DNA of 64,000 nucleotides. Origin: Xiphias gladius. Its lineage: Eukaryota > Chordata > Actinopteri > Istiophoriformes > Xiphiidae. How positions within the stretch are numbered: position 1 is the first letter of the stretch; the number at the start of each line of letters is the position of its first letter. A program made the position numbers and the translations under genes. Below are positions 1,402 to 64,000 of the stretch, in pieces. Where the stretch lies: positions 20,717,976-20,781,975 of the forward strand of contig NC_053409.1 in the NCBI RefSeq assembly GCF_016859285.1, given 5' to 3'. The notes under the pieces were generated by a model. The model made no database searches and was not told where the DNA came from. It worked only from the letters and a program-made list of their open reading frames with translations.

Positions 1402-20504
<19,103 letters not shown>

Positions 20505-22534: not shown

Positions 22535-22738
22535 ATGGCAGGACGTTCAGTGCCACTGTGCACAGACAAACTAAAGTTTTAGTCATTGGAGATTTAGGCG
22601 TCGGGAAAAAGTAGCATTATCTTGCGTTATGTTAAAAATACGCTTTGATGAAAGATACAAAGCATCTGCTAGAGTTGACTTTGCTCCAAAAACACGAAAC
22701 ACAGTTATAGTGTTTTACCATATAAAATGACATGGCCA
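22535..22738 (+). pseudogene. rab32: decayed first exon of a Rab32/38-type GTPase
   Basis: Read across three frames, this stretch gives the N-terminal third of a Rab32/38 protein: MAGRSVPLCTDKL, then KVLVIGDLGVGK (P-loop) from 22573, a shift to SSIILRYVKN from 22610, another shift to FDERYKASARVDFAPK from 22644, and a faint NDMA (expected WDIA) at 22726-22737. There are at least three frameshifts plus stops (TAG at 22612-22614). The expected donor after WDIA is gone. Position and strand match RAB32 in the human GRM1-STXBP5 interval. It cannot encode a working GTPase. Confidence 0.85.
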
Positions 22739-23813
22739 TAGAAATGTGTAATATCTGTGAAAACAGCATGTAAAATTTGCTGTAACTACAAAACAGAGCC
22801 AAAAATCAAACTGCAGTGACTGTGCTCCGGCTGAACGCCTAAAGCAAAGTAGTTATATAAGCTAGTTGATTAGCTAGCCATGGCTAGCTTTAGCTAAAGC
22901 TAAAAAATGTACTTAATAGTTTCCTCATGGCCGTTATCTGCAGTTGACCCACATCACTTTTGATAAACCCATATCTTGGTGAATTTGTTTACAGTAGCTA
23001 AATCCAATTGTAATGCAGAATAAAAACCCAGCAAACGCCAACCTAGCAGACTGCCATCTCAGCTTTTGACTCGGTTGTAATGTGATTTGGTGGTTGTTAC
23101 TTTTAAATCGCATTAAATATATTCAATTTTAAATTAATGTACAATATTGATCTTAATACAAATATTAGTGGTGGAGAGATAATATGTAAAATATGTATAT
23201 TTAATCCCTGTGAACTATAGACTGTAAAAAACATCAAAGAAAATATATATTTTTAAGGTATGTATTTATATAAATAAGGCATAACAACCTACCTTTCTAT
23301 GTGTTAAGCCAATTGGCAGCCAGCCTCACAACTTTAAACCCATTTTTTCTACTTCTTATGTTACTACTACTTATGTTGTTACTACTGTCTGCCTAGTGGT
23401 CTCCGGAAGTTTCAGATTCGTCACACTATAGTTCAAATCTGCAAAAATGACCTTCAAACTCTGATAAATCCTGCTATGATTTGACTATGACTGTTGTATA
23501 AGCTTACAGTATGATGAGTGTTTTCATGCCTAAAAACTGCAGCAAGTACACGTGCAGCCCTTCCCAGTGTTTTCGCAGATCTAATTTTAATCCTAACCAG
23601 TGTCCATGGAAACATACCATTTTATTTCAGAAAATTGCTGTTGTTAGTCTCTCACTTGTTAGATAATGTTAAAGCAACAGTTGAATATGATATGCTAATT
23701 TAAATCACAGATGATAAACAGAAGCACTACTTTCTGCGTGTCTGGGGCAACTTTAAATTCAAATCCAAAAACTGCAAGCCTTTTTCCAAATCATATTTTT
23801 TTATTCTTTCAAG

Positions 23814-24085
23814 GCCAAGAGCGGTTTAAGAAGATGTGCAGAGTGTACTAAAAAGGGGCAATGAGAGCAGTAGTGGTCATTACACACAGCTCCACCCTGA
23901 GGGCTGCCTCATAGTGGAAGCAAGACCTGGATGGCAAAGTCTGTCTTGACAGTGGACGTCCGATCCCTGCTGTCCTGCTGGCCAACAAATGTGGCATGAC
24001 AGGGAAGGAAGTAGACTTGGTGTCCTCTCTGGACAGCTTCTGTGAAGACCACAGCTTTGTTGGCAGGTTTGAGACTTCTGCAAAG
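23814..24085 (+). pseudogene. rab32: decayed second exon of the same Rab32/38-type GTPase
   Basis: A single open frame interrupted by two stops (TAA 23849-23851, TAG 23912-23914) reads GQERFKKMCRVY, then KGAMRAVVV, ITHSSTLRAAS, WKQDLDGKVCLDSGRPIP, AVLLANKCGMTGKEVDL, SFCEDHSFVGRFETSAK. This follows Rab32 from the G3 box to the G5 box (ETSAK). About two residues are missing after AVVV, and the G4 box NKCD has become NKCG. The exon is bounded by an intact-looking acceptor (TTATTCTTTCAAG) and donor (AAG|GTGTGT), where Rab32 exon 2 should begin and end. This is a gene relic with intron, not a processed copy. I could not find the last exon. Confidence 0.9.
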
Positions 24086-27000
24086 GTGTGTGTTGCATTA
24101 CAGTTACCATGGGAAAAGAAAATGTGTCTAGAGTAATAGTTAGGGATATGCAAACATATCTCAGAGGCATTATTAGCTGAGTCAAGCCTGAGTGGGGCAA
24201 GAGGAGCCAAAAATTCCCTTTTTTTTCAGTGCTGTCACGATTATTTTAGTAAATTAATTTCAACATAGAGTCTAGACTGAATTACCATCCAATTGGGAAA
24301 CTGCCCCGAGAACCCATACCCATAGGGGCCCCTTAAAACCCCCAGTTCACTATGCAGATATCACTTGGCTTTTTGTAATTTGATTACAAACGTATAAGAG
24401 AATTTGCAACACTTCAGTACAATGTTAACCGGGGCAGGTCCTATATTACTAATTAATAAAAATCTAATTTTAACACCTTCATTACTGTACATAAGTGTAT
24501 ACTAACATTCCTTGATAAATGTACATGGGTGCACCAGCAATTTCTTGCCCCAGGAACCCCTAACAGGTAAATGTGGCCTCAGAGTTATGCCAATTAAATA
24601 TTAACACATTAAGATGTGTTAATATTTACACTTCTTACTACAAAAAGCAGACCTATACATAATTAGACCAAAAAACAAATTGTAAAAGTACAATATAAAC
24701 AACATAAAGTGCAATAGATAGAAAAAAAAATGTATTAAAAGAGTTATGTTTGATTAGGTACAGCTTTATAAGCATATATAAGCATCTTCTCTTACTTTTT
24801 TCCATTCATTCTTGTTGTAGCATGAAAAGTTAAATTTATAAGCATTAATATGCACCCTTGCTCGATTTAATGCCCTCAGCAGTTTTGCTCTAGCCAGATA
24901 CTTGGTCTGGTATGACCAGCATCTTATGATGGCTAATGTAAGCTAATGATAGCAAACATTAGGTAGATATTGCTGTTATAATCGACATTACAGAGTCACT
25001 TTATGACCCTTCTCTACCTGTGCTACTGTTACACCACGTTTTACCATTTAATTCATGTCCTATGAAGACCATTTATCTCCAAAACGTCATCTCAGGAACA
25101 CAACCCTGTTTTGCAGTGCATTTTCCTGATCATTCAGTGGGGTTTTAAATGGTTTATTTACCCTCAATAAGTAGATTTTTTATCCAAAAACAATCAAAAA
25201 TCACCAAATATGGAGGTACATAGTGTTCAATGGGGCAAAAATGTAAATATAAGTGAGGCTGCACTCTTATTGGCTATTTTGAAAGTGGAAGCTGGTCAGC
25301 TGCACTGCATTTTTTTCAAAGTTAAAAGGTTCTGTTTAATAATGTAAACTTCATACTCTCTTACCCATCTCTTCAGGTTTTAATCAACCACTGATTGGTT
25401 GACTAATTGACCTATTGAATTACTCCTATATTTGTTTGCCTGTTTGTTGGCGTTTGCCTTTGACAAATTTTACTTTGCAGCACTGAAGCTGCATTCTGCC
25501 TGAGTAAAGCTATCAACGGGTCATGTGGCTCACAATTAGAATCGTATGAGGTTATACTATGCTGTATGTGTGAACTTCAACACTACAGCCATACGGCCTG
25601 CTCATAAAACGTTTTCAAATATTAACACAAAGGAACAACTCGCAGCCAAGGTTAAAACACCGAGCAAAACACTTTACTCAACAGATGCATACACAATGTT
25701 CTAAATCATATCCTCCCGTACCATTTATAGGACAACATAAATATTGATGAGGCAGGTGCCTTCCTTGTCAAACAAATGGCGCTGTGTGACACTGGGCTGT
25801 CCAATGAAGAGCACCACTGGGACAGGATCAAAGTGAGCCAGGCTCCCGGGGAGAGCCAGAGACCGTCATTGTGCTGCTGGAGGCGAAGGCTCCAAGGCAA
25901 AGAGGCAAACAAAGGCTGCCAGTGGTTAAACGTTCTAACAAGACCTGATTTGATACCAAGTCACGAATCCACAGCCACCACACTGAAGCTAGTATTTCAG
26001 AAAGCCTGTGAGCCTGTGTTACATAGTCAGTAACTTTATATCCGTATTTCTGCTTTGCCAGTTTTCCCAATATTGTGTGGATTGTGTGGGCTGCCTCATA
26101 AACACCTCTGTGGGGACGACTGAGCTCATTTCGCTGATGATCCACTGATACAATCAGGTTAATAAACAGATCAGCATGACACACATCCCGCTGGGAAATA
26201 TCTGTGGCACTCCCCGTGCAACCAAGACGTGCTGGTGATTGACCTACTATAATGAGAGGCCAGAAACTGTGAAACAGTCACAACTGACATTTTATCGAAC
26301 CACAGACACAGCAGGAGAGAGAAAAAAATTATCCACAAACATTTTGGGGTTTCAAGCTGTCAAATATTCCTCATTAAATGGCAAACTTTTCAATCCCAGG
26401 TCCAAGAGTTACTTGTCTGTTATGCAACCCATGCATATAATTATCTGTTAATCACTTCACAGCGAGATGAGCTAAGACCCATGCATAAGCATTGCAGCCC
26501 GGCTTGATATGGCCAATAGCGGAGAAAAGCTATCAGCATGACCTGATTTTAGGGGAGGGAGGAAATATGTGAAAATGTACCACACTGCTGCACAGAGAGG
26601 TCTGTGTTAGAGAGTGCGCTAAGATGAAGGGGGCAGAAAAGAATTACTGTATGACTGTTACACTCATTGATAGACAACACATTACAAAAGACACAATATT
26701 CTGATGCCTTTTTTTCCCCGCAAAAGCGAGGCAACCATGACACGATTGAATTTCGGGATTGCTGCCTTGGTAACATCTAGATATGTTGATGCAGAGACAA
26801 ACAGAGTTGGAGTATCAGGCATTTACTGACTTCTGATCATGATTTTTTTTTTTTTTTTGTATTACTGACCACAAGTAGTGGTGAAAAAAGCTTTCAGATC
26901 ATTAACATGAGTATAAGTAGCAATACAACAATGTAAAATGACTCAACTACAAGTAAAAGCCCTGTATTCAGATTTGAACTATTATTAAGTGTAAGCACAG

Positions 27001-47700: not shown

Positions 47701-50700
47701 TATGTATATTGTTTTGTATAATGTTGTGTATAATGTGTAAGTGTATAATGTCAACAGAAATATTAGCATTTGGTGCAGTTTTTATCGCACCAAAAGATTA
47801 GATTCATCTTACAGAATATTTCTAGTCCCATTTCAGGTTACAGTTAAAATACATACAGCTGTACAATCCATGCTATGATACTACACATTTCCATATCTCA
47901 AGATCATACATATGCTCAGAAAATGGTAGACATTGAGATCTGCAAAGATGAGAATATAAAAGCCAGTGCATTTTACATGTAGATATTCATATTAACGTAA
48001 GGAACTGCTTGCACAGTGATGAAGTCCGTCTGTGGAAGAGAAGCTAAATTATGTAAGTCTTGAACATCAGACAAACTCTAGAATTATAGAGTACATTGCA
48101 GAAATGATATTGCTCGGGCTTTTTTATCAAAAAATTTGGAAATAAAGGAGTTGTCAGTGACAGTGTTTATCATTCCACGTTGGTACATGAGAAAGAGTTA
48201 TGTCGCACCAATGTTTTTGGCATTACTTTTTTTTTTTTTGTCTGAATTTTGCAAAGTTGTATGTCACATCATTTTAAATCTGCTTCTTAAATATTTGTTA
48301 TTCTTCTTGAATACAGTATGAATTCTATCTTGAAGCAGTTCGCAGATTGAAGAGGGGCACATTCACAGAGTCCTGCTGACTTTGAGGTTAAAACGCAATT
48401 GATTTAGGCTTAAACGCAATTGATCAATTGATTAATCCCTCTGAGAGCTTTGCCATGGCTGTATTAGGCTTTGAAGCAGCTGGCTATGCCGTTTTAGCAT
48501 GTGTATACACTACGGTGTCATCTGCATAGATTACTGTTTCCCCTCAATGACAGTGTTTAGAGAGATTATTAACGTTTAGCCAAATTCACACTACGGATCT
48601 TGGTGACAACTGCTTTTGTGCATTTAATGCCCACTGGAATTAATACTGACTCCAACACACTAGTTGCTGCCATGGGTACATTTGATGTAGGTAGAGGATC
48701 ATCATATCTTTCTTTTTCTTCACTCTTCTCAAAGTAATGCTTCAAGTGCTGTACAAGTTGAAGACCGCCAAGGTTTTTGAGCGGGCTCGCAGTAAGGAGG
48801 AGAAGCCAAGTACAGATATAGTAGAAGAGGACCCATTCGCCATCCAGACCTTGTCCTGGTGCCCTGAGAGCAGGATGCTCTGTGTGGCAGGTGTGTCTGC
48901 CCACGTTATCGTCTATAGGTTCAGCAAGCAAGAAATCACCACTGAAGTTGTGCAGGTGGGTAAACGTCATTTTCCATGGCAGTGTCATCAGAAACATGCA
49001 GAATTAAAGTTTTGGACAAATGTTAATCATTTAAATCTTAGTCCTGAAACTTTTATCTGACTGCAGACAGGCCACTGCCCTTTGTAGTTTTTTTTGTTTT
49101 CTTTTTCTTTTTTGTGACAGACAGTTCAGGGAAATACAGTTTAGGGAAAGAAACCTCTGGCATGCATGCATGTACAGGTGTTTTGAGAAGTGGAGGTACA
49201 AGAACAAGCCTTTTTGTGACAAATCATCTCTTGTGTTAAGCTTTTGGAGGTGCGGATGCAGAGTGAATTTAGCGAAGTGGATTCCCCTGATCCAGGGGGG
49301 GAGCAGACGCCGACTCTGCCAACCCCGGGAGCTCCCCCCAGCCCTCAGGAGACTGAAGTGCCCACCCAGCCTTCCACAGGCAACAGCTCCTCTGACGGAC
49401 CCCGGGACAATATACCATGCCTGCAGTATGGACAACAGTGTCTTCTTGTTCTTTTTTTTTTCTTTTTTTCTTTTTTTTTGGCAAAAAAGATTGAATTGGG
49501 ACAAGCTTTTTGTTTCATTGTGAAGCAGATTGTTACTGAACAAACCAAAAACTGAAACAAAAAGGTCATTTGTGTGACGTAGTCATCCATTCATTCCTTA
49601 CAGCCATCTGTTCAATCCTTCATGAAATTTCCACATCAGTACACCAGGGGAAAATGTTCTTCTGTATAAAGATATTAAAAATGATGAAAATGTTTTGACA
49701 GCAGAAGGTTGGAAGGGGGAATAACAATAATAAAAAATGATCATATTGTCAGTGCAGCAAAGGGTCAGGATTCGTTCCCATATAAACCATATCCTGCTGT
49801 CTCATGTTGCTGTGTGTTTGATGCAGGGTGCGGAGCTCCCCGCTGAAGCAGTCTCCGGGCTACCAGGTGGAGCTGGTGATCCAGCTGGTGTGGGTGAGCG
49901 GGGAGCCACCTCAGCAGATCACCAGCCTGGCTATCAACTCCTCCTACGGCCTGTAAGTATCTATGGCCAGCACACGTGATATTTTGGCATGAGGTCACAT
50001 CACTTTATGCCCACACTTGTCCTGACAGTGGTAGTTATGCCTGTCCAGTAGCTTTTTTTTTTGTGCAAAATTTGTGTGTATCAAGAAATTTTAAGTGCAT
50101 CCTGTCACGCAGAAGGCAGTAACCAGGCATTTATATAGTGCAACTGTAAATAAAGCCTGTATCACAGTTTGGAGTAAGGAGCCAAAATAGCATCTGAATC
50201 CTAATTACACCGTGTCCCTCATCCCCCCCTGTGTTTCAGCGTGGTGTTTGGAAACAGTAATGGCCTGGCTGTGGTGGACTACCTCCAGAAAACTCTGCTC
50301 CTCAACATGGGCACATCAGAGCTGTATAGCCCATCTGACCCCTACCAGAGGCAGCCTCGCTCCCCACGCAAAGCACGACAGCCCTCTGGAGGTGAGCTGC
50401 ACTCCAAAAATTATACCCCTGTCTCATTTTTCCTGGTGCTCACTCTCTAAGCACTGCTAAGTAGCTGCACCGACTGCCCTGACTCACATTAATCTCCCTG
50501 AAATAAACGCTTTATTCAATAGTGAGTTACCTTATATTCCATTGCGTTGCTTAACACTGACTGACCGTTAGAGGTGGGTTAGGGAGGCAGCGCTGACACT
50601 TGGCAGCCGCTGTTACTTCGCACTATGACCACCACCCCCTGCAGTAGCTCCTCTCCCTCAACAGGGGGCATCACTGACAGATTCTCCATCTGTTCATTTG

Positions 50701-53700
50701 GACTGTGCAAGGACAGTGGAGCTAACATGTTGGGGACCTGTGCAGTCAGAGTGGATGCTGTATCATTGCCTCTCTCCTGTAATAAAATAATCTTTTGATT
50801 TGTTTGAATGATGAAAACAGTACATAAGCCTTGTTTACTTGCTTGTACTAGCCTAGCAGTTTCTCTCATGTCATTTATTTTCTCTTTTTTATCTAATCAT
50901 CCTCTCATTCGCTATTTGTATTCATTCTTCTCAGTCTCAGTCGTCTGGTGCTAGACTCTTTTAACTCTTTTTTGCTCTTTTAATTGGGTTTTCTGCCATG
51001 CAAAGCATTTTTTTAGTTCATGTGAACTATAAGAATGCTATGTGAGAAATATATTTATACTGTTTAATTTCCATCGCAAATCCAGCAGCAAGCCTCTGAG
51101 ACGTCCTTCTCTTTTGCACTTATGATTTCCAGTCATTTTTCTGTCTCACTGTTTTTACTCTTGGTCTCTCTCTGTGATTTGATAAAGACATTCCAAATGT
51201 GACGTCTTGCATGTCCAGACTTTCTAACTTGTATACTGAGTCTGTGAAAAAACTACGCTCACCTCACTTCAGTAAGTCATGTTGTGTCAGAATTTACCCC
51301 TCCTAGTATCATTTTTCTCCTATAAAGCCTTTCCTTCTTCCCATGAAGATATATTCCCTGATTTGGTTATAGCAACCCCCCATCCCCAAAGCTCACTATT
51401 GACTTTTTTTTTTTTTTTTTTTAAACACCAGCAGTCAGCTGGGAGGAAATTTTAAGACTTGAGGGTTCTGTAACAAAATCAGGTAGTTTATCTTTCAACC
51501 CTGCCTTCCTGTTTTACTAGACAAACAGTGACACATTGAGTCAAATGTAATAGGTTTGTGAACTCAAGTTTGGTGTATTTACTGGACTGTATGGATAGCT
51601 ATCCCTGCCTTTGTTTAAATAGGTGACCCTTTATTATTTTCACCACATGTACTGTAATGTAGAAGTTGGCATAGCTTTAGTAAGAGTTGCTAAGAGTAGT
51701 CGAATTGTAGGACTAAATCTGCCATGTTTGATTACGACTTTTGTGGATCCCACAGCACTGTGCGATTCCAACGATGGATCTAACACCTCAGAGGACCGCT
51801 GCAAATCACCTACGTCAGGTAAGCGTTAGTGCTCCATGCAAAAAAACAAATCATTTTATTATTTTAAAATACCTTTTTTTTTCAATTGCCGCTATTTGTC
51901 ATGTAGGATCTACCTCACCATGCAATTCAGACGATGAACGAAAACAGAAGTTCATAGAGAAGGGTACTGTATCATTCAAAGCTGCATATCCACTTAAATT
52001 CAAGCATTTGTAAAGTGGCTGCAGTTTTCTGATTTGTCTTTTTGAACCTTATTTCCAGTGAAGTTCAAAAGCAGACGCTTTTCCAAGACGGTTGCCAATG
52101 ACTTTGGTACTGTATCATTCAAATGTATTCCTTCTGATTACTCACTCTTTCTCTCTGAATGACGGCGTTCTAACCACACTGTGCCTTAATCCTACATCAG
52201 TCTGTGCTTCTCGTACCAATGACAGAAAGAAGTGCATTCAGGAAACGTGTTTTTACTAATCACGTGGTTTTGGGGTTTCATAGTCGATATCAGAAATTAA
52301 TCAGGATTCTTCATCGAATGCATGACAGGACATCTTTTAAATTTCAGGCCTCAGATTTTCTATGCAGAAATTTGTCACAATAGGCTGTAGGCTGTTGTTA
52401 CGCAACTGTAGGTAGAAAAAGGTATGCCAAATTGGCAGATGTTACTCTATACTTCATATTTTTACTAATTCGAAAGCATAGAAAATCTGCTTCATGCCAC
52501 CATATTTATCGTACTAATGTCTAACCGCATCACTTAATTGTTTAAGTGAAATATTTCTCTCTGATTGTAGACACTTGCTGTGTGTGTTTCTGATTCCAGG
52601 GCTTCAGTCAGTGTTAAATGTTTGGCTGCCCACTGATTTTTTTTTTTTTTTACCTTTCCTCCCACTCTCTTTGCATAACTATGTTCAATGAATTATAATT
52701 ACCTTATTTCTTGACTGCCTCTTGCTTTGTTTGGCATTACAGGCCCTTTGGTTGTCTGTGATGCTTCTCAGCGTCCTTTGTATTCTCAGGGTTTCTCTTA
52801 GGGTGGTTATAGACTACAACAGGCAACTTTTGGGGTACTTTTGGTAGCAAGGAACAATATTCCTATCGAAAACCCCAAAACAAACCAAGTCAAATGTTTT
52901 TGGAATCAGAATATTCCTCTTAAAGCAATGCACAGCATATACTGTAAGCATGTCCTCAGCAGTTGTCCTACAGTATGTATCACCACTCTTACGTTGACTT
53001 TTTTCGATTGACTACCCACTAATTTGCAGTAAAAATTATGACAAAATAATTAATTGATGATTACTTAATCATCGGTTGTAATTTATCTCAGTAACCTTTG
53101 ATTCATCAACAAAAAAAATGTCAATTTTTAGCCCTCATTCTCTCCTCATAAAATTGGGGTATTTGTTTCTGTTACAGCCAAGATGTCACGGAAAATTAGC
53201 TCGACTAGTGAGCAAAAGCCAGACCTGGGTAAGCCAAAACTAATGCCTATAAGTTTCAAAGAACCTTTATATTTTCTTACAGGTGTTCCTCTTGTCATTT
53301 GAATCTTCTGCTTAGTATTAAATTCACAGTTTCAAAATACTCCTTTGAGAATACTGCTTATTCTCTAACAGCATGTTTTGTGTGAATGTGAGACTCCTGT
53401 TATCTTGTACTGTAAGTTGAGATGAACACTGTCTCTGTGTGCATTGTGTGCAGAGGAGAGGTCCCAACGATGGCGCTCTCTCACATGTAAGACGCACTTT
53501 TATTGTATGAACAAAGGCAAGGCAGCAGACAGGATGAGCCAGAAGGCGGACGTATGTAGAACTAAGTCAGCCCCTGACTCCTGTGAGTGGACCAGGTTTG
53601 GGCTGAAGTGGGATAACTGGTACTAACCCCCACCACTGCTGGGGCTTTTATTTCGAATTGGTTGACATATGACACTAATCCTCTCACAATGATTGTGTTC

Positions 53701-56700
53701 TTCTTTTTGAGGAGGTTCCACTGGCTTGACTGCACTCAGCATTAAAAATCTTGCTTTTCTTGTTTGCAGGGCAGTTTGTTTAGCCTTCCCTTCTGTGTCA
53801 CAGATCTTTTTTTATTTTCTGTTGCGATCCCTCATTAGCTTTTTAAAGTGGGTAAAAGCTTGTGTTTCAGCTTCCGTCAGCACAGTAATGAGGCATGAAT
53901 AATTTTTGCTCCTTATAACAGTTCTTCCTTGGGAGTCACTGTAGTACTACATTCATATCTTACGCATTTTTTCACATTGAGAATGTTGTTGTCAAATTTT
54001 TAATAGCAGAAAAACAAATTGGGAACAATTTAAAGAAAACTGCATCCTTGGGTGTAAACTGTGAAAGAAAATCTCAATGTCAAAAAGCTTTTTGGTGTGC
54101 CATAGATGAAGGGTTTGTTTTTTTTTTTTTTTTTTTGGCTGCACTGAGTCATTTCCATGAAAGACATGAATATGATCAAAGGCGTGCTCCACTAATCACA
54201 TGGTCGCAAAACATAGCCCTAACATGTTAACTGAGTTTTGACTTGGTGGATTTTATGCCATAATACCTCTAATTCTCCTGTTTGCATGGAGAAGTCCTCT
54301 GTAAACTTCTTACCCCTTTAGTTTCACATGAACGATTTCCTCATCGTCTTATTTCTGTGCTCACTCCCGCTGTCCAGATGCCAAGGATAACTCATTCACC
54401 CGCTCGCGTAGCTCGAGTGTAACCAGCATAGAAAGAGAATCTCGAGAGGCCATCTCCTCCTTTCACTTCTGTGAGAGTTATCCCAGGAAGACGGACAGCG
54501 TGGTCGGTCCCGGTGTGCTGGTGGGAACCACCCAGGGCTCTGTGATGATGGTGGCCCTCAGCCTGCCGCCTGGTGGGGACCAGAGGCAACAGCAGCCAGT
54601 CGGCATCTCCTCCTGCGGTAAGATATGTAATATACGTACTAGATATATACTGTATATACATAGCAGCCTTGCATCGTTAAATGTCAGTCATATTTGCTGA
54701 ACACAAGGTTCAAAAAAGACCAATCCTGTATTTTTCTTTTCCAAAAACTGAAATGTCATGCCAGAGTTAGGTCAATTCTATTGCGCCAAAATGTGTAAAG
54801 GCAATTTCTCTAACCTTAGTGAGAGCACAGGACAGAGAGAAAGTTTGAATAGGGTGGTCGACTAGTGAAAGTGGTTATATTTATTTATTTCCCATCTCAG
54901 TTAATGTGCACATGTTCCAAGTGAAAATATCCAACCGTCCATGCTCTACTGTCCTTTTAGTTGACCACGAGTTAAGGACTGCAGAAGTAGGAGAGCAAGA
55001 TTTTGCTTTACATCCTGTGGTAATTTGAAGGGAGTCTCTAATTCTTCCTCTTTATTACCCATTTTTCCAGGCACTCTAGTCAGACTCAAAGGAGGCATTT
55101 TGACGATGGCCATGCTGGACTCCACTGGAACTCTGCTGCCCCCATCCTACGAGCCATGGTATGACCCAAATGCCTCAGATGAGGAGAAGGAGAAGAGCCG
55201 GAGGCGCAGGCCAGCCTCCCCTCCCTCATCACAAGAGGGTCAAGACTCCCAGTTTGCTGTGCTGTGCTCGGAGAAACAGGCCAAGGTGGTGGCAATGCCC
55301 TCTCAAACCTGCATCTACAAACACAACATCACAGAGACCTCCTTCGTGCTCAGGGCTGATGTTGTGCAGATGGCCGGAGCTAACTTCATCGCCTGTTTCT
55401 GTGCTAATGGGCACATCATGACTCTGAGGTATCGTTACCGGTAGCTTCGGCTGGTATTGACATCTACTCTCAGAAACCAAAATAACTATCTTTGTCCAGC
55501 TCATTTCATAGCAAAGATACATCTCAGTCCAAAGGAGGACAGATGCAGCAGTAACAGTCAGCTGCCTGGTGGCCTTACGCTGTCTAATCTTTGTATCCTC
55601 ACAGTTTGCCCAGTCTACGGCCTCTGCTGGATGTGAACTACCTGCCGCTGACGGACATGCGGATAGCCAGAACGTTCTGCTTCTCTAACCTAGGTCAAGC
55701 CCTGTACCTCACCTCTCCCACCGAGATCCAGAGGATCACCTACAGCCAGGAGACCTGTGACAACCTGCAGGTCAGATACTTTCAATCAGTGAATGAGTTT
55801 TATTGTGAAAATTTTGAATTCATGTGTCATTATCAGAGCCGATAATGGTAAATGTGCAGACTGAAACAAACCAAAGTACAATATGTCAGTGTTTGAAATG
55901 AATCTTTGGGCTTCCCAACACAACAGCAACTATCCCTACACCAAACATCCTCTGTGTTCAAGTCTGAATCTGGGAAGGCACTTATTAATCTTCTGAGGTC
56001 ACTAGTATTAGAGTTTAGTATTTAAAAACATTTGTGTTCTTTTCAGACATGTGAAATGACATAATTTCATATCCATTATTAACACCTGAAATGGCTAAAT
56101 GACTAAAAAAACAACAAACAAACAAAAAAAACAAGCTTTGTAGGTCAGTCTATATGTCCACAGGGAATATAGATTGAAATAGATGCGTGCTGATGTTTTC
56201 TGTCTTCTCCAGGAGATGCTCAGTGAGTTATTTACCCCTGTGGAGACACCAGAGGCTCCTAACAGAGGTTTCTTCAAAGGCCTTTTTGGTGGAGGAGCTC
56301 AGTCTCTGGACAGGGAGGACCTCTGTGAGTACAGAACAGCCTAGTATCACATCATGATTCCCTCATTTACATACATGCTTCTATTTGCATATTGATATAT
56401 TTCTGTTTCTGTTTCTCAACACGACTGGCTTCTATTGCTCCCTATGAGTGCCGGCGCTCAGGCTCCAACGGCACATTTGTAGTCTGTATAAATAAGAGAG
56501 CCATTGTCTATATTTCTCTTCTAGATTCCAACTACTATTAAAGTATTTTAGTATTTATACTTCTTAATAGCGTATGAAACTTTTTAAATTTTATTTTATG
56601 TGAAATGTGACAAAGTTAAATTCATTCAGTATGAAGATTTTAACACCATAAAAATCATACATATTTTAGACATAAATTTCACTCATTTTGGGAACGTGGC

Positions 56701-57181
56701 GGATGACTTTTGGGTTTCAGAAAAATTCTGTAATCGCCAAGATACCATTTGATTTAACATGACAAAAGAAGATTTGGCAACATGACCTCTTTTTTTTTTT
56801 TTTTTTTAATTTTAAAATCTTCGATAGTTGGTGAAACAACTGCTGGTAAGGCCTCCCGTAGCCTGGCCCAGCACATCCCTGGCCCAGGCAGCATGGAGGG
56901 CATGAAGGGTGCAGCGTCTGGGGTTGTGGGTGAGCTGGCCCGCGCCCGGGTAGCTCTGGACGAGAGAGGGCAGAAATTGGGTGAGCTGGAGGAGAGAACG
57001 GCAGCCATGATGGCCAGCGCAGAGTCCTTCTCCAAACATGCCCATGATGTATGCACCTGACATTTCTTTGAGCACCTTAACCATTGTTTACAGTTTAAAT
57101 TCTTATGTCTGACTCCCCTGCTTTTATTTTTGAATTCAGATGATGCTGAAGTACAAAGATAAAAAGTGGTACCAGCTCTGA
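32597..57181 (+). CDS. stxbp5: syntaxin-binding protein 5 / tomosyn-1 (28 core exons, complete)
   Basis: Tomosyn binds syntaxin-1 and SNAP-25 through a C-terminal R-SNARE motif and restrains vesicle priming; it is cytosolic or membrane-peripheral in neurons and secretory cells. Core exons join in phase to 3438 nt, 1145 residues (human about 1151). Order: N-terminal KKFNIRKVLDGL, two WD40-type beta-propellers of the Lgl/tomosyn family (to about 690 and again about 770-1020), a low-complexity linker (544-598), a variable linker (694-766), and the VAMP-like coiled coil from about 1065. The zero-layer arginine lies in LDERGQKLGELEERT, and the end is KYKDKKWYQL. Extra cassette exons are listed separately. 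STXBP5L was considered; the sequence follows STXBP5 and the neighbours are those of STXBP5. Confidence 0.96.
33290..33610 (-). repeat. same AAGTACT-type teleost repeat, inverted partial copy in stxbp5 intron 1
   Basis: GGAAAGTAACTAAGTAAATT TACTCAAGTACTGTATTTAA and TTCAGAGGGAAATG, TTACTTTTCAGATTACTTTT correspond to the reverse complement of the 26870-27410 element. Confidence 0.7.
34613..34710 (+). CDS. stxbp5: stxbp5 exon 2 (residues 49-80)
   Basis: TVRHGFPYQPSSMAFDPVQK through GTQTGALRL, first blade. Acceptor TTCCTGCAG, donor CT|GTATCC, phase 2. Confidence 0.94.
36317..36342. repeat. (GGT)n microsatellite
   Basis: About eight GGT units followed by a G run, in stxbp5 intron 2. Confidence 0.9.
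36540..36890 (-). repeat. ATCGATTAATCG-type teleost repeat, inverted copy, stxbp5 intron 2
   Basis: AGCAGCAAATCTCCACATTT and GGCTTGAAAATGACTTTAAA are the reverse complement of the 5' half; an A run (36647-36662) interrupts it. Short fragments of the same family may lie near 1300-1355 and 31600-31665. Confidence 0.6.
38799..38880 (+). CDS. stxbp5: stxbp5 exon 3 (residues 81-108)
   Basis: FGRAGVECYCQHESGAAV through QFLINE. Acceptor CCTTTTAG, donor GAG|GTTTGT. Confidence 0.94.
38924..38945. repeat. (TCC)n microsatellite
   Basis: About seven TCC units in stxbp5 intron 3. Confidence 0.9.
39124..39224 (+). CDS. stxbp5: stxbp5 exon 4 (residues 109-141)
   Basis: GALVSALADDSIHLWNLRQK through SLKFNRE, a WD40 blade with the HLWN strand. 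Donor GAG|GTAGAG, phase 2. Confidence 0.94.
40542..40676 (+). CDS. stxbp5: stxbp5 exon 5 (residues 142-186)
   Basis: ITYCHLPFQSKWLYIGTERG, then NIHIVNVESFTLSGYVIMWN. Acceptor GTCCTCACAG, donor CT|GTGAGT. Confidence 0.94.
42440..42503 (+). CDS. stxbp5: stxbp5 exon 6 (residues 187-208)
   Basis: STKTHPGPVVHISDNPMDEG and K. Acceptor CTGCACAG, donor AAG|GTAAAC. Confidence 0.94.
43447..43530 (+). CDS. stxbp5: stxbp5 exon 7 (residues 209-236)
   Basis: LLIGFECGVVVLWDLKSKKA then DYRYNYDE. Donor GAG|GTAAGA. Confidence 0.95.
43634..43667. repeat. perfect 14-bp inverted repeat, 6-nt loop
   Basis: CTTCCTTCACATGT, loop GAGAGG, ACATGTGAAGGAAG. About 100 nt downstream of the exon 7 donor of stxbp5. Confidence 0.9.
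44706..44829 (+). CDS. stxbp5: stxbp5 exon 8 (residues 237-277)
   Basis: AIHSVAWHHEGKQFVCSHSD, then GTLTTWNVRAPAKPAQIITP. Acceptor GTCTTCCAG, donor CATG|GTTAGA. Confidence 0.95.
45000..45078 (+). CDS. stxbp5: stxbp5 exon 9 (residues 278-303)
   Basis: GKQPKDGKKPEPCKPILKVE and YKTTRA. Donor GG|GTAAGT, phase 2. Confidence 0.94.
45694..45848 (+). CDS. stxbp5: stxbp5 exon 10 (residues 304-355)
   Basis: GDPFMVLSGGLSYDTLGRRA, then CLTVMHGKSTAVLEMDYPIV, then DFLTLCETPYPN. Acceptor GTAACTCAG, donor AATG|GTGAGC. Confidence 0.94.
45964..46036 (+). CDS. stxbp5: stxbp5 exon 11 (residues 356-379)
   Basis: DFQEPYAVVVLLEKDLVVID and LGQI. Acceptor GTTTGCCAG, donor GG|GTAATT. Confidence 0.94.
47071..47218 (+). 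CDS. stxbp5: stxbp5 exon 12 (residues 380-429)
   Basis: GYPIFETPYPLTIHESPVTC then CEYFADCPAELIPALYSIG, ending RQKRQGYSKK. Acceptor TTCCTCACAG, donor AAG|GTAATT. Confidence 0.95.
47461..47528 (+). CDS. stxbp5: stxbp5 exon 13 (residues 430-451)
   Basis: EWPISGGNWGQGTQSYPEII and IT. Acceptor TATTTTCACAG, donor GG|GTTAGT. Confidence 0.94.
47644..47684 (+). CDS. stxbp5: stxbp5 exon 14, 41-nt small exon (residues 452-465)
   Basis: GHADGSIKFWDASA, a WD40 strand. Only 41 nt; phases 2 in and 1 out fit both neighbours. Donor T|GTGAGT. Confidence 0.93.
48735..48955 (+). CDS. stxbp5: stxbp5 exon 15 (residues 466-539)
   Basis: LMLQVLYKLKTAKVFERARS through TLSWCPESRMLCVAGVSAHV and IVYRFSKQEITTEVVQ. Acceptor CTTCTCAAAG, donor CAG|GTGGGT. 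Confidence 0.94.
49241..49425 (+). CDS. stxbp5: stxbp5 exon 16, proline-rich linker (residues 540-600)
   Basis: LLEVRMQSEFSEVDSPDPGG followed by a Pro/Thr/Ser/Glu-rich stretch and DGPRDNIPCL. Low complexity here is typical of tomosyn. Acceptor GTGTTAAG is weak, donor CA|GTATGG. Confidence 0.92.
49827..49952 (+). CDS. stxbp5: stxbp5 exon 17 (residues 601-642)
   Basis: QVRSSPLKQSPGYQVELVIQ then LVWVSGEPPQQITSLAINSS. Acceptor GATGCAG, donor CT|GTAAGT. Confidence 0.95.
50240..50391 (+). CDS. stxbp5: stxbp5 exon 18 (residues 643-693)
   Basis: VVFGNSNGLAVVDYLQKTLL through SPRKARQPSG. Leaves in phase 1, opening the run of phase 1-1 exons that follows. Acceptor GTGTTTCAG, donor GGAG|GTGAGC. Confidence 0.95.
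51188..51271 (+). CDS. stxbp5: candidate stxbp5 cassette exon A (28 codons)
   Basis: An open 84-nt segment between acceptor GATAAAG and a strong donor CA|GTAAGT. Entered in phase 1 it reads DIPNVTSCMSRLSNLYTESV then KKLRSPHF and leaves in phase 1, so inclusion or skipping keeps frame. It lies in the linker where mammalian tomosyn-1 is alternatively spliced. The residue pattern looks coding, but I cannot confirm use. Confidence 0.7.
51432..51482 (+). CDS. stxbp5: possible stxbp5 cassette exon C (17 codons)
   Basis: An 18-base T tract (51405-51422), then CACCAG, precedes 51 open nt reading AVSWEEILRLEGSVTKS in the required phase, ending TCAG|GTAGTT. Phase 1-1 again. The donor is weaker than the others and the exon is short, so chance is not excluded. 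Confidence 0.4.
51756..51818 (+). CDS. stxbp5: stxbp5 exon 19 (residues 694-714)
   Basis: ALCDSNDGSNTSEDRCKSPT then S, matching the GLCD...EDRCKSPTSG segment of mammalian tomosyn-1. Phase 1-1, 63 nt. Acceptor GATCCCACAG, donor CAG|GTAAGC. Confidence 0.92.
51907..51963 (+). CDS. stxbp5: stxbp5 exon 20 (residues 715-733)
   Basis: GSTSPCNSDDERKQKFIEK, matching mammalian SSPHNSDDEQK...FIEK. Phase 1-1, 57 nt. Acceptor GTCATGTAG, donor AAGG|GTACTG. Confidence 0.9.
52059..52106 (+). CDS. stxbp5: stxbp5 exon 21 (residues 734-749)
   Basis: VKFKSRRFSKTVANDF, matching mammalian VKTKSRKFSKMVANDI. A basic segment, phase 1-1, 48 nt. Acceptor TATTTCCAG; the donor context TTTG|GTACTG is the same as in exon 20. 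Confidence 0.9.
53178..53228 (+). CDS. stxbp5: stxbp5 exon 22 (residues 750-766)
   Basis: AKMSRKISSTSEQKPDL, matching mammalian AKMSRKLSLPTDLKPDL. Phase 1-1, 51 nt. Acceptor TCTGTTACAG, donor GG|GTAAGC. Confidence 0.92.
53454..53582 (+). CDS. stxbp5: candidate stxbp5 cassette exon B (43 codons)
   Basis: After GTGTGCAG an open 129-nt segment reads EERSQRWRSLTCKTHFYCMN then KGKAADRMSQKADVCRTKSA and PDS in the phase set by exon 22. It ends at the donor T|GTGAGT, again phase 1-1. If the donor is not used the frame stays open to a TAA at 53624-53626, giving a truncated protein ending WDNWY without the second part and SNARE motif. I do not recall this segment from mammalian tomosyn with certainty. 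Confidence 0.6.
54378..54617 (+). CDS. stxbp5: stxbp5 exon 24 (residues 767-846)
   Basis: DAKDNSFTRSRSSSVTSIER, a serine/arginine-rich stretch, then ESREAISSFHFCES and the next propeller strand GVLVGTTQGSVMMVALSLPP. Acceptor GCTGTCCAG, donor TGCG|GTAAGA. Numbered 24 because cassette B is counted as 23. Confidence 0.95.
55071..55428 (+). CDS. stxbp5: stxbp5 exon 25 (residues 847-965)
   Basis: GTLVRLKGGILTMAMLDSTG through QFAVLCSEKQAKVVAMPSQT and CFCANGHIMTL. A charged loop DEEKEKSRRRRP interrupts the propeller. Acceptor CATTTTTCCAG, donor GAG|GTATCG. Confidence 0.95.
55605..55770 (+). CDS. stxbp5: stxbp5 exon 26 (residues 966-1021)
   Basis: LPSLRPLLDVNYLPLTDMRI through YLTSPTEIQRITYSQETCDN and LQ, the end of the second propeller. 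Acceptor TCCTCACAG, donor CAG|GTCAGA. Confidence 0.95.
56213..56324 (+). CDS. stxbp5: stxbp5 exon 27 (residues 1022-1058)
   Basis: EMLSELFTPVETPEAPNRGF then FKGLFGGGAQSLDREDL, the conserved hinge before the SNARE motif. Acceptor TCTTCTCCAG, donor T|GTGAGT. Confidence 0.95.
56828..57048 (+). CDS. stxbp5: stxbp5 exon 28, R-SNARE coiled coil (residues 1059-1132)
   Basis: FGETTAGKASRSLAQHIPGP, then ASGVVGELARARVALDERGQ and KLGELEERTAAMMASAESFS. The arginine in LDERGQKL aligns with the zero-layer arginine of VAMP2. Acceptor CTTCGATAG follows a 19-base T run; donor GAT|GTATGC. Confidence 0.95.
57140..57181 (+). CDS. stxbp5: stxbp5 last exon (residues 1133-1145 and stop)
   Basis: MMLKYKDKKWYQL then TGA at 57179-57181; mammalian tomosyn ends KYKDKKWYQF. 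There is no membrane anchor, as expected. Acceptor TGAATTCAG. Confidence 0.95.
   Translation: MMLKYKDKKWYQL

Positions 57182-62801: not shown

Positions 62802-64000
<1,199 letters not shown>

Follow-up and report, generated by a model that had tools for sequence, protein, structure and literature searches.

Remains of an unprocessed rab32 gene beside grm1 in Xiphias gladius, with an intact sister gene in a mirrored segment

Results

Remains of a three-exon gene downstream of grm1

We examined a window of 64,000 nucleotides from Xiphias gladius (NC_053409.1, here C10; positions 20,717,976 to 20,781,975), in which an earlier note, made from the letters alone, had described two separate + strand stretches at 22,535-24,085 as exons 1 and 2 of a broken Rab32/38 gene. 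Both are present, yet that description was incomplete, as a third exon at 25,731-25,877 had been overlooked. The rab32 relic spans 22,535 to 25,877 on the + strand, and parts of each of its three exons are still readable. The features of the window are the following:

1416..20504, + strand: grm1, with ligand-binding, 7TM, and Homer-binding exons (Pfam; mGluR1 in PDB, E 2.5e-180)
22535..22700, + strand: exon 1 relic, with aligned start Met, P-loop KVLVIGDLGVGK, switch I, and FAPK (the FALK equivalent)
22701..23812, + strand: lost 3' end of exon 1 plus intron 1; donor unrecognizable; 3' end still with polypyrimidine tract and AG acceptor
23813..24085, + strand: exon 2 relic, from GQERF to ETSAK in one frame; donor AAG/gtgtgt kept
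24086..25730, + strand: intron 2 relic, with GT donor and AG acceptor
25731..25877, + strand: exon 3 relic, DNINIDEAG...SLCC
48695..57060, + strand: exons read as stxbp5, ending in a synaptobrevin-type coil (Pfam and C4 paralogue)
62802..63461, + strand: exon with a SAM domain, read as sash1 (Pfam SAM_1, 7.9e-12)

Three of the four splice sites of the relic survive, namely, the acceptor of intron 1 and both the donor and the acceptor (TAG) of intron 2; base 23,813, the first of the exon 2 interval, is the G of its acceptor AG. The boundaries of exons 2 and 3 are those of the rab32 gene found on C4 (see below). The intron and the two exon 2 splice sites reported earlier are thus visible, acceptor and donor alike. 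The frame is open from 23,915 to the donor (24,085) and, across the intron, from the acceptor (25,731) to 26,033.

The end of grm1 lies about 2 kb upstream of the relic on the same strand; in PDB, this gene scores 602 bits with mGluR1 and 506 with mGluR5. Within its span, an open stretch on the - strand (8728-9270) is presumably a fragment resembling a LINE-type reverse transcriptase. Downstream, the stxbp5 region gives a Pfam Synaptobrevin match (2.1e-4 for 56,758-57,060) that is below the curated cut-off, weak WD40 matches at 48.7 kb, and no WD40 match in Pfam at 54.3-55.4 kb. The searches themselves return domains and paralogues only, and the names stxbp5 and sash1 are our assumption from the human gene order. 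In human, ADGB sits between RAB32 and STXBP5; the corresponding interval of the window is 26,034-48,694.

Homology to Rab32

When searched against all PDB chains, the exon 2 fragment at 23,915-24,136 matches Rab32 best (E 1.8e-15), followed by Rab38 (2.5e-14) and Rab29/Rab7L1 (5e-10), while the next Rab reaches only 0.34; no unrelated Rab subfamily comes first. Exon 3 has two PDB matches up to E 10, both to Rab32 (1.2e-5 and 4.2e-5). The P-loop piece of exon 1 alone is too short to be significant in PDB (best E, 0.92), and neither the exon 2 nor the exon 3 fragment is assigned to a Pfam family at E 0.1. In a frameshift-tolerant alignment with C4 rab32, exons 1, 2, and 3 score 115, 222, and 108, against maxima of 33, 39, and 31, respectively, among 60 shuffles each. 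The Rab32/38 identity of the first two exons is thereby borne out. The relic does not appear among the listed matches of a genome-wide Ras search in which 150 of 538 candidates were scored, nor does its exon 1 among the 57 genome matches of C4 rab32 exon 1.

Lesions

The earlier count of at least three frameshifts plus stops stands as to the three, all of which are in exon 1, near 22,568, 22,606, and 22,643 in the alignment to C4 rab32, which permits one-base steps only and scores all three changes so. Exon 2 keeps a single frame, interrupted by two stops (23,849-23,851 and 23,912-23,914), and is two codons shorter than in C4 rab32. Its NKxD motif reads NKCG, with the D lost, and the W preceding FETSAK in its 3' half is gone. 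In exon 3, the Cys-Cys pair is kept in place, but the stop codon after it has disappeared and the frame continues to 26,033; the CC, a prenylation signal when C-terminal, is no longer so. The last 16 or so codons of exon 1 and its donor are unrecognizable: the score of the C4 tail alignment is reached by 62 of 300 shuffles, and DNA alignments of this end to the C7 gene and to the C17:10.02 gene are equaled by 80 and 165 of 300 shuffles, respectively.

Judged by the marks of a functional Rab GTPase (an open frame and intact G1, G3, and G4 motifs), the relic falls short: its frame breaks at the P-loop, and WDIAG is unrecognizable. Because of this break, the lost end of exon 1, the changed NKxD, and a Cys-Cys that is not terminal, it would make no working GTPase. 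There are 102 positions invariant in the five Rab32/38 genes described below. After 13 unreadable and 2 gapped positions were dropped, 85 could be scored in the relic, of which 23 are changed; 2 more are stops.

Segments on C4 and C10 are mirrored

The sequences of the window have counterparts on C4 in the same order and on the same strand. Both segments lie on the + strand, with the grm1 7TM exon at 20,735,718, relic exon 2 at 20,741,890, stxbp5 at 20,773,054, and sash1 at 20,780,807 on C10, and grm1 at 11,506,479, rab32 exon 1 at 11,512,182, stxbp5 at 11,671,060, and sash1 at 11,749,878 on C4. The C4 grm1 is 89% identical. At E 1e-5, the stxbp5 and sash1 queries each find two places in the genome, C10 and C4. 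Such a mirrored pair is the pattern of a segment or whole-genome duplication. The ancestral slot claimed for the relic, with grm1 upstream and exons read as stxbp5 downstream, is found twice. The gnathostomes examined in PMC4728774 always have rab32 beside Grm1, with zebrafish as the teleost, so a Rab gene is present at this locus in at least one other fish.

The 7TM region of grm1 is one exon of about 930 bases in both C10 and C4, unlike that of two grm5-like copies, where it is split over several exons (C17:7,108,921-7,110,787 and C7:12,311,042-12,314,377). This contrast could have arisen if grm5 gained introns before it was duplicated, or if grm1 lost them.

Five intact Rab32/38 genes and the closest relative of the relic

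A search of the assembly (690.8 Mb) with relic exon 2 found six places at E 0.1 or better: the relic itself, C4, C17 (two), C7, and C12. With C4 rab32 exon 1 as the query, those five genes were recovered at 1.7e-26 or better, the next match being at 3.9e-9. All five are apparently intact, in the sense that they have open exons 1 and 2 followed by a match to exon 3; for C4 alone, exon 3 was checked in full along with its stop. The five genes are the following:

C4:11.51 Mb: rab32 (11.512-11.527 Mb), three exons, GE P-loop, ending in CC and a stop
C17:7.12 Mb: Rab38-like, 6 kb downstream of a grm5-like match
C7:12.35 Mb: Rab38-like, 32 kb downstream of a grm5-like match
C17:10.02 Mb: Rab32/38-type gene
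C12:14.95 Mb: Rab32/38-type gene

The grm5-like matches on C17 and C7 are what we take to be grm5. The last two genes (C17:10,012,000-10,017,000, - strand, and C12:14,947,000-14,956,000, + strand) form a pair with an extra coding intron after DLDSK, and near each of them the other strand holds a further Ras-type match.

Over the whole protein, the relic is most similar to the C4 gene, with 104 identical residues of 191; the other genes share 89/185, 78/166, 85/165, and 83/175. The individual exons differ in what they tell. In exon 1, C4 shares 32/53 residues and C12 28/46, and the alignment score of 115 with C4 is followed by 111 and 106 for the next genes; in exon 2, C4 shares 49/89 and C17:10.02 49/86. 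Exon 3 shares 23/49 residues with its C4 counterpart (47% over its whole length), and a local tblastn search in a database of about 157 kb gave E 2.6e-10 for C4 rab32, compared with 0.013 for the next gene. By these sequence comparisons, exons 1 and 2 alone do not single out C4, whereas exon 3 clearly does. The N-terminal MAG..SV is common to the relic and C4 only. A midpoint-rooted tree joins the relic, on a long branch (1.05), to C4 with support of 87/88, which is below the starred level; with six rows, all taken from the same genome, it cannot tell whether the relic is rab32a or rab32b.

The relic and C4 rab32 share three coding exons, an N-terminal MAG, and a CC at the place of the C terminus (no longer terminal in the relic), in addition to the exon boundaries and same-strand neighbors noted above. 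They differ in that the C4 gene is intact and has longer introns, about 11.5 and 2.9 kb versus about 1.1 and 1.6 kb in the relic. They also differ in the P-loop, which has GD in the relic and GE in C4. According to PMC4728774, GE versus GD separates Rab32 from Rab38, GD is diagnostic of vertebrate Rab38, and rab38 is located beside grm5; rab38 is also described as duplicated beside tyr (PMC1890551). We therefore considered whether the relic could be a rab38. The Rab38-like genes (C17:7.117 and C7:12.346 Mb) resemble it in subfamily, in exon 1 and 2 boundaries, and in the GD P-loop, but they have grm5-like neighbors, an N-terminal MQ, another C terminus, and fewer identities with the relic overall. 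This identification was set aside, given the grm1 neighbor of the relic, its exon 3 match to C4 (2.6e-10, against 0.013), and the grm5-like matches that lie upstream of both Rab38-like genes. A single third-position change in a decayed gene may account for GD in place of GE. The FALK stretch after switch I, which is common to Rab32, Rab38, and Rab7L1, reads FAPK in the relic; it is in the right place and departs at one residue of four, in a gene that has decayed.

Discussion

Origin of the relic

The relic is a genuine rab32 pseudogene, unprocessed and still in the ancestral slot, and its sister gene is intact. We consider it very probable that it is the dead C10 member of a rab32 pair, namely, the second of two copies left by the teleost genome duplication, a copy retained for a long time before its loss. 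According to this model, one grm1-rab32-stxbp5-sash1 segment would have been duplicated, giving the C4 and C10 segments, and both rab32 copies would long have remained genes. Later, released from selection, the C10 copy would have accumulated small indels, stops, and missense changes where it lay, with no retrotransposition involved. The C4 gene presumably supplies Rab32 function now, next to two rab38 genes and two more genes of Rab32/38 type, much as the earlier note had supposed. That the duplication was the teleost genome duplication is most likely, judging from published pairs (PMC6403355, PMC4728774).

The earlier note had left the choice between a unitary and a post-duplication pseudogene, and the second alternative holds. 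That this fish has lost its sole rab32 might be read from the relic occupying the grm1-stxbp5 slot, but C4 carries an intact rab32 of three exons, complete with CC and stop codon, between its copies of grm1 and stxbp5; we reject the unitary reading and give it almost no weight. Just as remote is a retrotransposed or tandem copy of some Rab. The relic is no intronless copy: it retains two introns at the parental rab32 positions, along with one GT site and two AG sites, which excludes the processed origin as the earlier note had claimed. Its position and strand are mirrored on C4, and the genome search with its exon 2 gave no further match on C10. Assembly or sequencing errors in an intact gene could in principle look similar, as the frame changes of exon 1 are modeled as one-base steps and such steps can be read errors. 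Yet errors of this kind are a hardly credible source of changes at 23 of 85 invariant residues, two stops, two missing codons, a lost stop codon, and an exon 1 end beyond recognition, and elsewhere in the window the 7TM exon of grm1 has an open frame of 310 codons.

A less extreme alternative is that only the 5' half is dead, while the 3' half (exon 2 from the Trp on, plus exon 3) is still used with another first exon, as a short protein or as a transcript with a new role. The open frame across the splice junction agrees with this, as does the lower fraction of changed invariant positions in the 3' half (6/31) than in the 5' half of exon 2 (12/25; Fisher p 0.04). However, this p value is marginal and the split point was chosen after the stops were seen; against exon 1 and the 5' half of exon 2 together (21/58), the difference gives p 0.15. 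The 3' half also lacks the D of NKxD, the W before FETSAK, a stop codon, and a P-loop. An open 3' half is in any case expected, since about 0.15 changes per site predict just 2 to 3 stops in the whole gene. We regard continued use of the 3' half as quite improbable and keep to the loss of the whole C10 gene.

Timing of the loss

The decay of the relic fits about 0.15 neutral substitutions per site, an estimate that includes an exon 1 alignment picked for best score; this predicts 2.8 nonsense codons in 193, and 2 are seen. Had the gene fallen silent at the teleost duplication, far more decay would be expected. The milder decay suggests that selection probably maintained the copy through most of that period. 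If some of the protein change arose while the gene was still alive, as may be the case, the loss would be more recent. At neutral rates in fish of a few per billion years, 0.15 per site would correspond to some tens of millions of years, a conversion in which we place no confidence.

Second rab32 genes of other fishes

The list of published pairs presumably goes back to the pigment gene review of Braasch et al. (2009). Stickleback has two rab32 paralogues, of which the XVIII copy was found in embryos and the bracketed copy, placed on LG XV by our reading of the table, was not detected (PMC6403355); zebrafish Rab32b is fast-evolving and could not be amplified (PMC4728774); and arowana has two genes listed under rab32 (PMC4684697). 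Overexpressed zebrafish Rab32b localizes to the muscle T-tubule/SR junction, although its puncta were separate from the induced tubules in a cell model (PMC7381618). The C10 relic resembles zebrafish rab32b and the LG XV gene of stickleback as a second teleost rab32, one being fast-evolving and not amplifiable and the other undetected in embryos. It differs from them in that they are listed as genes, whereas the C10 copy is a pseudogene; the likeness draws on published descriptions. Its orthology to rab32b of other fish, like the date of its loss, is an indirect suggestion. It is conceivable, though on the whole unlikely, that the second teleost rab32 is gradually being lost across fishes, with weak expression and fast evolution where the gene survives and a dead copy here, and that the 3' half of the relic may linger as a transcript using the surviving splice sites.

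Among the titles and abstracts listed in our literature searches, no description of this rab32 pseudogene was found. The loss of a duplicate gene is an ordinary, well-known kind of event, and this case is well preserved: living and dead sister genes in mirrored segments of one genome make a clean before-and-after comparison. It suggests that a duplicate can persist long after a genome duplication and then be lost. The relic would offer a fixed point for dating the loss of rab32b in fishes, and species without the second rab32 would be natural tests of whether its role at the T-tubule/SR junction matters.
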